Shown here one piece after another: positions 15,715 to 48,621 of a stretch of 64,000 nucleotides of DNA. A program made the position numbers and the translations under genes. Within the stretch, counting starts at the first letter, position 1. Every line of letters starts with the position of its first letter. The notes below the pieces were generated by a model. That model was not told the origin of the DNA. It saw nothing but the letters and a program-made list of their open reading frames with translations, and did not search any database. This DNA comes from Candidatus Saccharimonadales bacterium (GTDB taxonomy: Bacteria > Patescibacteriota > Saccharimonadia > Saccharimonadales > UBA4665). The stretch covers positions 603,396 through 667,395 of the forward strand of contig DASVRW010000002.1 of NCBI GenBank assembly GCA_036388415.1. The letters are read 5' to 3'.

Positions 15715-16125
15715 TTAAGTATGTAATTCTGGATTATAGATCTTTATAAACTCTTTAACCTGCGGGAATAGATCCTCTTTATCAGCCTCGTCTTTATTAA
15801 AGAATCGCAGCTCAATACACTCGTCAGATGGAGTAAAGTTAAGGTCTTTTAGTTTTATCTCATAAATAATGTTTGCAACATAACCCTCTCGCCCAACTTT
15901 AGGCGCAGTTACGAAGTACTTTGGAGTCGAGGATACTTTGATTATTTCAAGGCCAGTCTCTTCTTTTATTTCTCGTTTCAGGGCTGCGATCGGATCTTCG
16001 CCGTGGTCTAAGCCGCCGCCAAGTAGTTCCCATTTACCATTATCTTCTTTCGCCAATAAGAATCTGCCCGTTTCGTCTATCGCAATCCCTTTGACGCTAA
16101 CTCGAAAGTGGTTCTGATCGTTCAT
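15715..16125 (-). CDS. NUDIX hydrolase
   Basis: A 136-residue pyrophosphohydrolase. The Nudix box starts at GGGLDHGEDPIAALKREIKEETGL (about residues 36-59), with the REIKEE core that binds metal. NUDIX enzymes cleave nucleoside diphosphates linked to another group. The specific substrate is unknown. It overlaps the HAD gene upstream by four bases and is the third gene of the operon. Confidence 0.88.
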   Translation of the reverse strand: MNDQNHFRVSVKGIAIDETGRFLLAKEDNGKWELLGGGLDHGEDPIAALKREIKEETGLEIIKVSSTPKYFVTAPKVGREGYVANIIYEIKLKDLNFTPSDECIELRFFNKDEADKEDLFPQVKEFIKIYNPELHT

Positions 16126-19444: not shown

Positions 19445-20995
19445 ATGGAAAAACGAATTCTTATAGCCAGAGTATCAGACGTTGAGCAGCGCAAAGCACT
19501 GCCTGCACAACGCCAAAGGCTAGAGAACTATGCCAAACAACTTGGCGGCCCCTACGAGTATTTTGAGTTTGATGAGAGCGCCTATAAAGAAGCTCGGCAA
19601 AAGTTCTCTCAGCTCGTAGAGAAAATCAGAACCCTCGACCACTTTGCGATTATTGTCTTCGATAAAATAGATCGTTTTACCCGTGACGCTTCGCAGTCTG
19701 AAGTGCGAATAATGGGTGGCTTGGTCGAGAAGGGCAAGATCGAGATGCACTTCCCGTCTGATAACTTGGCGATCACCAAGGACTCACCTGCTACCGATCT
19801 CTTCCGACTGGGTATTGGCATGCTGCTGGCAAAGTACTATTCGGATGCCAGCCGTGATAATGTGAAGCGCCGCTTCGAACAAATGCTAAACGATGGCATA
19901 TGGGTACACCGCGCGCCGACTGGTTACAAAAATGTGATCACGGGTGGCACGCCTCAGCGCCCCACTAAAGACATAGAAGTCGATCAAGCCAAAGCTCACT
20001 TTGTGGTTAAAGCATTCGAGATACGGGCGCAGGGTATCTCGTACGGCATGATCGCAAAAGAACTTGGCAAGATGGGCTTCAGTAGCAATGTCGCTGGCAA
20101 CAAACCGCCGACTAAAGCATTTCTAGAGCGCATGCTTAATAACAAGTTCTACTACGGAGTAATGACGCACTCGGGTAGAGATTACCCTCACAAATACGAA
20201 CCCTTAATTGAGCGCTCCCTATTTAACCAATGCCAGTCGGTGCGTGATAAACGCAAACACGACAAGACCAAATATGACAGCATCGACTATACCTTTAAGA
20301 AGATCGTGAGCTGCGGCGTATGCGGTCGCGCCGTATCACCTTTTAAGGCGCGGAATACGGTCTATTTACGATGTGCCAGCGCCGGTAAGTGTGGTGATCC
20401 GAATACGGCGGAGAGTTTGGTGATAGATCCCGTGTCCGCCGATATGAGCTTTGTCGGCATACCAGAAGAATGGTTAGAACAGATAATTACTGAGCTGCGC
20501 AAGCGTCATGACGACCAGCAGCAATACTATGGTAAAAACATTGAGCAGACTAGAGCGGAATACGATCGCCTAAAGTTGAAGATGAAGCGACTCTATGATG
20601 ATTACCTCGACGGGCGTATTACTCAGCAGACTCACGACGATTACGCCAACGAGATGGAATCTAGGCAACAAGAACTCAATGATCGCCTAAAAGTTCTAAC
20701 AAAGGACAATAAGAGCTTTCAAGTGACCGCTTCATACCTGTTAGACCTAGCACAGCGAGCTGAACTGCTCTTCAAAACCAGTGACGAAGGGCTAAGACAG
20801 AAGCTCCTTGAATACGTACTTTCAAACATTGAATTAAAGGATAAGAAGTTGTCGTATATGTTCAATAACCCCTTTGGAACAATCGTCGAGGCAAACAAAA
20901 AGGCCCTTGCGGGCCAAAATGATACTATTTGGTGCGGGTCAGGGGACTCTAACCCCTGGCCTCGTCCTTGGCAAGGACGCGCTCTAAACAACTGA
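19445..20995 (+). CDS. Large serine recombinase (integrase)
   Basis: A 516-residue recombinase. The resolvase domain has the catalytic serine in LIARVSDVEQ (about residue 11) and VFDKIDRFTRD at about 69-79. The recombinase domain (GTPQRPTKDIEVDQ onward), a zinc ribbon (SCGVCGRAVSPFKARN...LRCAS) and a coiled coil at about 360-430 follow. It should integrate and excise the 11.2 kb element at tRNA-Gly. The last 20 or so codons, after Trp near 20932, are the antisense of the tRNA, so the C-terminus (CGSGDSNPWPRPW onward) is host-encoded in the integrated state. No frameshift is seen. Confidence 0.93.
   Translation: MEKRILIARVSDVEQRKALPAQRQRLENYAKQLGGPYEYFEFDESAYKEARQKFSQLVEKIRTLDHFAIIVFDKIDRFTRDASQSEVRIMGGLVEKGKIEMHFPSDNLAITKDSPATDLFRLGIGMLLAKYYSDASRDNVKRRFEQMLNDGIWVHRAPTGYKNVITGGTPQRPTKDIEVDQAKAHFVVKAFEIRAQGISYGMIAKELGKMGFSSNVAGNKPPTKAFLERMLNNKFYYGVMTHSGRDYPHKYEPLIERSLFNQCQSVRDKRKHDKTKYDSIDYTFKKIVSCGVCGRAVSPFKARNTVYLRCASAGKCGDPNTAESLVIDPVSADMSFVGIPEEWLEQIITELRKRHDDQQQYYGKNIEQTRAEYDRLKLKMKRLYDDYLDGRITQQTHDDYANEMESRQQELNDRLKVLTKDNKSFQVTASYLLDLAQRAELLFKTSDEGLRQKLLEYVLSNIELKDKKLSYMFNNPFGTIVEANKKALAGQNDTIWCGSGDSNPWPRPWQGRALNN
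20897..20915 (-). terminator. Terminator of tRNA-Gly inside recombinase gene
   Basis: On the minus strand GGCCC-loop-GGGCC followed by T5 lies 14 bases after the tRNA CCA end. On the plus strand the same bases encode recombinase residues near the C-terminus (KKALAGQ), so tRNA terminator and coding sequence overlap. Confidence 0.75.
20929..20937 (-). repeat. Right attachment core at tRNA-Gly 3' end
   Basis: TTGGTGCGG contains the CCA end and the first acceptor bases of tRNA-Gly. It differs at one base from the four TTGGTGCAG copies to the left. If crossover occurs within GGTGC, an element with attP GGTGCAG would leave GGTGCGG at the tRNA and GGTGCAG at its far end, as observed. Confidence 0.6.
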
Positions 20996-47814: not shown

Positions 47815-47950
47815 GGCCTCATACTGAACATCTCAGCTAGCTCGTAGCTATAGCGCTACTAATACCTGCCCAACGTGCAGCAATGCGATTTGCAAATAAC
47901 ACATACCATTAAGAAAGTTCAGTCTTCGAAACATCAGTCCTTAAAAATAA

Positions 47951-47975
47951 AAAACTTCCCAAATCGGGAAGCTTT
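47951..47975 (-). terminator. Terminator beside tRNA-Glu tail-like repeat
   Basis: CTTCCC-AAATC-GGGAAG flanked by A-rich sequence on the left and CTTTT on the right. On the minus strand it follows the CCA-like end at 47988 by about 17 bases, as would a displaced tRNA terminator. Confidence 0.75.
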
Positions 47976-47987
47976 TAGTCACATAAT

Positions 47988-47997
47988 TTGGTGACCC
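47988..47997 (-). repeat. tRNA-Glu tail-like att scar
   Basis: TTGGTGACCC is an exact ten-base copy of the 3' end of tRNA-Glu at 48546-48555. The two copies are 558 bases apart, in the same orientation, and enclose only the NUDIX gene. Confidence 0.65.
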
Positions 47998-48053
47998 ACA
48001 TCAAAATAAATTGGCACGAATTGGTTGAGGAACTAGTTCGATGGAATGAGATT

Positions 48054-48497
48054 CTATCGGGATTCAACACGACTCATCGCATCGTATATCCAGTCGACTC
48101 GTAGCTTATTGTCCTCTTTCATTGCTGTGATTTCATCGAAACTGAACCATTTTGCATCAAGGATTTCATCTGGCTGAACTTTCAGCTCACCCCCGATAAT
48201 CGTAGCGACGAAAGCATGCCGGACAGGCGATTCAATGGTCTCGTGATAGATACCAATCTTGTCTCCAAGCTCGACATCATAACCTGTCTCTTCCTTGGCT
48301 TCTCGAACCGCCGCAGCTTCAATAGACTCGCCTTTGTCTACATGTCCTGCCGGGAGATTCCATAACCCATATACTTTTGGCTGCTTTTCCTGAACCAGCA
48401 GATACTTGCCATCATCACGGCGTACAACGCAGCCAGCAACTACTCTCGACCATGCTATACTCGCTTCCCATTCTTCTGTATTCATATAGGTAATCAT
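48054..48497 (-). CDS. NUDIX hydrolase on a tRNA-Glu-bounded cassette
   Basis: A 147-residue NUDIX enzyme. The box is AGHVDKGESIEAAAVREAKEETGY at about residues 50-73; WNLPAG precedes it. It resembles ADP-ribose pyrophosphatase or MutT-like proteins; the substrate is unknown. The gene is the only one between tRNA-Glu (48547-48621) and a copy of that tRNA's 3' end at 47988, which suggests it moved in as a single-gene cassette. Confidence 0.88.
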   Translation of the reverse strand: MITYMNTEEWEASIAWSRVVAGCVVRRDDGKYLLVQEKQPKVYGLWNLPAGHVDKGESIEAAAVREAKEETGYDVELGDKIGIYHETIESPVRHAFVATIIGGELKVQPDEILDAKWFSFDEITAMKEDNKLRVDWIYDAMSRVESR

Positions 48498-48545
48498 ATC
48501 AGAAATAAAAATAACCCCAGATGAATGGAGTTATTATTCTTATGC

Positions 48546-48555
48546 TTGGTGACCC
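48546..48555 (-). repeat. tRNA-Glu 3' end, attachment core
   Basis: TTGGTGACCC, containing the tRNA CCA end, matches 47988-47997 exactly. Confidence 0.65.
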
Positions 48556-48621
48556 CAAGGAGAGTCGAACTCCTCTTGCCGGGATGAAAACCCGATGTCC
48601 TAACCGATAGACGATGGGGCC
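48547..48621 (-). tRNA. tRNA-Glu(TTC)
   Basis: A 75-base cloverleaf with encoded CCA. The anticodon stem TCGGG/CCCGG encloses TTTTCAT (anticodon TTC). The T-loop TTCGACT is normal. Its 3' ten bases recur at 47988. Confidence 0.95.

Follow-up and report, generated by a model that had tools for sequence, protein, structure and literature searches.

How does a single small gene come to lie between a tRNA gene and a second copy of the 3′ end of this tRNA, and is such a gene part of the inherited chromosome or a unit that moves? This question is raised by 558 bp behind tRNA-Glu in a stretch of 64,000 nt (the window; contig DASVRW010000002.1 of assembly GCA_036388415.1, Candidatus Saccharimonadales bacterium) that is part of a Saccharibacteria-like genome (G000) with a size of 1.14 Mb. 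On comparative sequence evidence, we regard the interval, with a probability of about 0.85, as a single-gene mobile cassette and as a member of a tRNA-anchored cassette-array system of Saccharibacteria. These bacteria are tiny, reduced epibionts whose gene gain is poorly known, and with a recognisable site the captured genes could be listed across their genomes.

A NUDIX gene between two copies of the tRNA-Glu end

The interval is organized as follows, with all features on the minus strand:

48547..48621, minus: tRNA-Glu (anticodon TTC; ARAGORN), the anchor, with the 3′ end GGGTCACCA as putative insertion target
48546..48555, minus: tRNA-side repeat copy, GGGTCACCAA
48539..48546, minus: AGCATAAG flank immediately 3′ of the tRNA-Glu CCA
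48510..48535, minus: hairpin-like terminator that separates tRNA-Glu from the NUDIX gene, within the cassette
48054..48497, minus: NUDIX hydrolase gene, 147 aa, the cassette cargo
47997..48046, minus: left arm of the cassette-end site (TTCCATCG...TTCCTC...GTGC...TTTTGATGTG), with an alignment of about 50 nt to tRNA-Lys array sites of another family
47988..47997, minus: far copy of the tRNA-Glu end, GGGTCACCAA, the tail of the cassette-end site
47950..47976, minus: hairpin-like terminator 3′ of the far repeat copy

The sequence TTGGTGACCC occurs exactly twice in the window (47988-47997 and 48546-48555, spacing 558 bp), while 0.10 occurrences are expected by chance and none of 100 shuffles contained two. 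The exact repeat described in the initial annotation is therefore real, but it does not consist of the last ten bases of tRNA-Glu: as the tRNA-Glu(TTC) gene spans 48547-48621, the repeat GGGTCACCAA comprises the last nine tRNA bases (GGGTCACCA) and one flanking A. The terminator that had been noticed on the far side is likewise present (47976-47950), but a second one lies inside the interval (48535-48510), at a position that agrees with the terminators opening other cassettes, so the far terminator is not just the tRNA's terminator moved outwards. The only long open reading frame (ORF) between the copies is an intact NUDIX gene, as had been claimed; it starts 50 nt past the CCA of tRNA-Glu and ends 65 nt ahead of the next CCA, which is within the range of array members.

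Repeats of this kind are more frequent than expected by chance. In 4 of the 40 tRNAs of the same genome (Gln-CUG, Met, Ser, Glu), the final 9 nt of the tRNA are found again at most 700 nt downstream, whereas 0.05 such cases per 40 tRNAs are expected when the ends of other tRNAs serve as control in the same 700-nt search. The tRNA-Gly island of the window had been thought to share the architecture, and this part of the claim was not confirmed: no second copy of the tRNA-Gly end CGCACCA lies in the 12 kb downstream of the gene, and a search with two mismatches gave 6 matches versus 3.9 expected. A NUDIX gene near this island (window 15715-16125) resembles by eye the NUDIX cassette of the tRNA-Gln(CUG) array, and another one lies between tRNA-Cys and tRNA-Leu (L090 8083-8622, G000:C2:570898-571440), where no end repeat was found.

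The product of the cassette gene matches PF00293 with an E-value of 2e-26, its NUDIX box is intact, and the nearest relatives with solved structures are NUDIX hydrolases (E 6e-13 or weaker). The closest named homologues come from metagenome-assembled genomes (MAGs) of Candidatus Saccharibacteria. Among 393 genomes of the class, which represent a draw and not a census, 15 encode homologues at E <= 1e-30; close homologues (65-73% identity) are rare, and identity reaches 73% to a genome of another family versus 70% within the genus. In genomes G038 and G138, homologues directly follow tRNA-His and tRNA-Asp, respectively, and in G036 and G167 they lie near tRNA-Asn and tRNA-Trp; those at tRNA-His, tRNA-Asp and tRNA-Asn belong to other families, and those at tRNA-Asp and tRNA-Asn sit in tandem arrays of small cassettes. 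At tRNA-Glu itself, NUDIX is absent in all 15 relatives whose loci were read, so that the insert varies between relatives; several of them keep the neighbourhood of histidine kinase, tRNA-Glu and pyruvate kinase without NUDIX, and G003 has a different small element at this position. A synteny of NUDIX with tRNA-Glu throughout the phylum, which would have contradicted the initial annotation, was thus not seen, and judged by this distribution the NUDIX cargo is mobile. More distant homologues of the window NUDIX (50-63% identity; L117, L120, L121, L124) occur on contigs labelled Berkelbacteria, Nomurabacteria, Moraniibacteriota and Shapirobacteria.

Cassette sites and arrays behind other tRNAs

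The far end of the interval resembles cassette ends behind another tRNA. The stretch of 57 nt from the NUDIX stop codon to the tail can be aligned for 50 nt to the first of the tRNA-Lys sites in G138, a genome with cassettes at two tRNA-Lys genes, and the alignment score of 38 is 8 SD (standard deviations) above the background of 1218 post-stop windows of the genome (mean 13.8, SD 3.0). None of the 1217 other windows scores 38, the lone window at this score being taken as the site itself; with the second tRNA-Lys site, the score is 27. A pattern made from the window site and the tRNA-Lys sites has 9 matches across the 393 genomes versus 1 in the control, and only G138 (two) and the window have it at the expected distance behind a tRNA. 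The match in G248 lies about 1 kb downstream of a tRNA-Met, and the remaining matches may be due to chance.

The flank on the tRNA side points in the same direction. AGCATAAG directly follows the CCA in 2 of the 40 tRNAs of the genome, namely in tRNA-Glu and in the array-bearing tRNA-Gln(UUG), and it is also found after the CCA of array-bearing tRNAs elsewhere, with the exception of tRNA-Pro of G036, which has the flank without a repeat. The word AGCATAAGC alone was rejected as a site marker because it is too frequent across the genome (81 matches with one mismatch in 404 kb), and therefore only its position directly behind the CCA was used.

Rows of gene-site cassettes are present in relatives as well as at the tRNA-Gln loci of the same genome, and the lengths seen are limited by the MAG contigs. 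Behind tRNA-Asp of G138, five cassettes carry genes for NUDIX, a methyltransferase, a GNAT acetyltransferase, an alpha/beta hydrolase (on the other strand) and a cupin, and the repeat that closes each of them has the tRNA-Asp end GGCCCGCCA as its final 8-9 bases. The array behind tRNA-Asn of G036 is a row of sites with GAGCCA ends, with the NUDIX homologue in the first interval, and the one behind tRNA-Trp of G161 contains about 8 sites with mostly CTGCCA ends. Arrays also lie behind both tRNA-Gln genes of the window's genome, tRNA-Gln(UUG) and tRNA-Gln(CUG) (G000:C2:243000-250000, L083; G000:C2:424500-428500, L087), and their cargo comprises NUDIX genes, a zeta-toxin/kinase-like gene and genes of unknown kind. 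The sites of these two arrays have the common arm GTTGCGAAGTACGTC, yet end with TAGCCA at tRNA-Gln(UUG) and with CAGCCA at tRNA-Gln(CUG), which in each case is the end of the own tRNA. The cassettes measure about 0.5-1.6 kb, and no recombinase was seen in those examined.

The agreement between site tail and tRNA was quantified for the most common site type, B1, defined by the pattern AAGTACGTCAAYNANGGGNNNCCA with <=2 mismatches. As this pattern was built from the first arrays seen, these arrays count by construction, while the matched genomes are mostly new ones. There are about 63 matches in 31 of the 393 genomes, versus 2 for the reversed pattern. A tRNA on the same strand precedes 47 of the sites at a distance of less than 9 kb; in 36 of these, the tail equals the three bases before the CCA of this tRNA, whereas permutation of the tRNA ends gave a mean of 9.2 and a maximum of 26. 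The consensus of 41 junctions reads AaagtTsCGAAGTACGTC-ActAgGGG-NNN-CCAagcataa, and the agreement of its tail with the tRNA offers a rule for the recombination core that can be tested directly.

A possible exchange at tRNA ends and its alternatives

In the plan seen in these comparisons, a cassette consists of a AGCATAAGC flank, a terminator, usually one small gene, a site arm of 20-60 nt and a copy of the local tRNA 3′ end. Most likely, a site-specific recombinase would join a circular form of the cassette to the end of the tRNA by an exchange within the NNNCCA that both have in common. Such an exchange would restore an intact tRNA with a terminator and would leave the former tRNA end on the distal side of the inserted DNA, and arrays could be built up by repeated insertion. 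The anatomy, the homology of the sites, the agreement of tail and tRNA, the patchy cargo and the arrays are seen in the sequences themselves; the circular intermediate, the point of exchange, the direction in which arrays grow and the recombinase are inferred.

Several observations weigh against this interpretation of the tRNA-Glu locus. The 10-bp repeat is short when taken alone, the window has just one cassette at tRNA-Glu instead of an array, and the site of this cassette differs from the common B1 type, the one B1 match in the window being at chance level. The initial annotation had suggested a search for related strains in which tRNA-Glu is directly followed by the far terminator; NUDIX is indeed missing there in the 15 relatives, but this exact junction was found in none of their tRNA-Glu neighbourhoods, and the CHAP / L,D-transpeptidase flank on the right-hand, chromosomal side is not kept in any of them. 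The homologue behind tRNA-His of G038 has no tRNA-end repeat after it, and as none was found behind the gene at tRNA-Trp of G167 either, these two cases are cases of adjacency only. The first interval of the tRNA-Asn array of G036 contains two genes, not one. Finally, the evidence for the cassette is wholly comparative.

What alternatives exist? The interval could be an ordinary tRNA-targeted islet, i.e. the degraded remnant of a larger integrative element with a serine or tyrosine integrase, of which one passenger gene is left between attL and attR. Islands at tRNAs that carry 3′-end repeats are frequent in bacteria, and large serine recombinase genes lie just behind tRNAs in several genomes, including at tRNA-Gly of the window. 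We consider such an origin unlikely, however, as the site arm is common to intact tandem arrays of single-gene cassettes, members of the cargo family also form cassettes at other tRNAs, and the regularity of cassette size and layout is not what a random remnant would predict. It is still more doubtful, to the point of being very improbable, that the tail-like sites act at the RNA level, with tRNA-like 3′ ends and terminators that end or process the cassette mRNAs. Each site does follow closely on a stop codon and is usually succeeded by a hairpin terminator, but an RNA signal gives no account of why the tail copies the specific upstream tRNA and leaves same-strand arrays of sites behind tRNAs unexplained; moreover, some cassettes have genes on the opposite strand, and the sites show no excess folding (DNA parameters). 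This leaves a coincidental 10-bp repeat beside a normally inherited NUDIX gene. Matches of 9 to 11 nt to tRNA end regions do lie within 12 kb of many tRNAs, but in view of the own-end statistics, the 50-nt site homology, the flank motif and the absence of NUDIX from this locus in relatives we judge this explanation to be already refuted, with a negligible residual probability.

For the mobile cassette, the question then is which enzyme acts, as no integron integrase was found: none of 60 relatives' genomes contains IntI (TIGR02249) above the family cut-off. An identity of the sites with attC was rejected, as hairpin folding of six sites was not above background (z -1.03 to +0.94, DNA parameters). 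The window cassette encodes no tyrosine recombinase, NUDIX being its only long ORF. The idea of a general tRNA-targeted cassette system whose members lack an own recombinase, put forward in the initial annotation, is strongly supported. All six genomes examined encode a Xer-type enzyme, which is the sole tyrosine recombinase in four of them (G003, G036, G138, G167), and in each of these four there are array sites or a tRNA-proximal NUDIX homologue. Serine recombinases are also present in all six, several of them encoded just behind tRNA genes. Candidates would thus be Xer or serine recombinases acting in trans; as the 6-bp tail that matches the partner resembles the overlap region of tyrosine recombinases, we would favour Xer. 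Tentatively, the system might be an integron-like capture system of Saccharibacteria at tRNA 3′ ends that is run by the single housekeeping Xer, with NNNCCA as the exchange core that ties a cassette to one tRNA type, although we rate this picture as possible rather than probable. The large serine recombinase genes close behind tRNAs, mostly in convergent orientation, were observed at window 19445-20995, at G000:C2:664155-664577, on contigs C48, C78 and C100 of G036 and on C4 of G138.

The closest described elements are the additive flexible genomic islands of Ca. Actinomarinales (PMC7771536) and Ca. Methylopumilus (PMC10872708), which have direct repeats of tRNA fragments and for which tRNA-targeted gene cassettes marked by a tRNA repeat have been described. 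Growth by repeated insertion is alike, but the Saccharibacteria repeat comprises only the last 6-10 nt including the CCA, a conserved arm of 20-60 nt is common to different tRNAs and families, the cassettes are mostly single genes that each open with a terminator, and the system recurs across many families of Saccharibacteria. Integrons and CALINs (clusters of attC sites lacking integron integrases) share the tandem rows of small, mostly same-strand and mostly single-gene cassettes in which every gene is followed by a recombination site. In the relatives searched here, however, no IntI exceeded the cut-off, the sites do not fold as hairpins, and the arrays are anchored at tRNAs and have tails that follow the tRNA. 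The dif/pdif modules of Acinetobacter, which are thought to be mobilised by the host Xer (PMC12907356), are likewise small modules in a row without own recombinase, with a 6-bp core between two arms; the Saccharibacteria sites, in contrast, are built on tRNA ends, and visual inspection of the B1 consensus revealed no dif-like pair of 11-bp inverted arms. Tycheposons of Prochlorococcus and Methylophilaceae are also tRNA-anchored insertions with cargo, but measure 4-200 kb and contain a tyrosine recombinase inside the element (PMC10872708). No description of such arrays in Saccharibacteria or Patescibacteria was found in the literature searched, which did not cover most subscription journals.

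Further short elements behind tRNAs

Two other kinds of short elements were noticed at tRNA loci, and an Rfam scan of five loci with such elements gave no match to them. One kind lies near displaced tRNA ends and has the conserved stretch GAGAAnTGCCAGTGGCAnTTnGCAAGG (tRNA-Val of G000, L088; L170, L179 and L185 of G167; L220 of G036); it had no Rfam match in the two of its loci that were scanned. The other is a second, separate family behind tRNA terminators, with a conserved 56-nt hairpin of 20 predicted pairs, 4 of them with compensatory changes. This hairpin opens with GGTTCGG, which is T-arm-like, and behind it comes the 3′ part of the respective tRNA from the T-loop on, mostly up to the CCA, with some copies degraded. 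It is found at tRNA-Met (L096), tRNA-Ser (L098) and tRNA-Gln (L083) of G000 and in G003 (L148, L151, L153-L158), G002 (L144), G018 (L145) and G007 (L146). The copy in G002 marks the end of an interval that contains an exonuclease-like gene, and G003 has nine copies, one of them at tRNA-Glu, the same tRNA that carries the NUDIX gene in the window.
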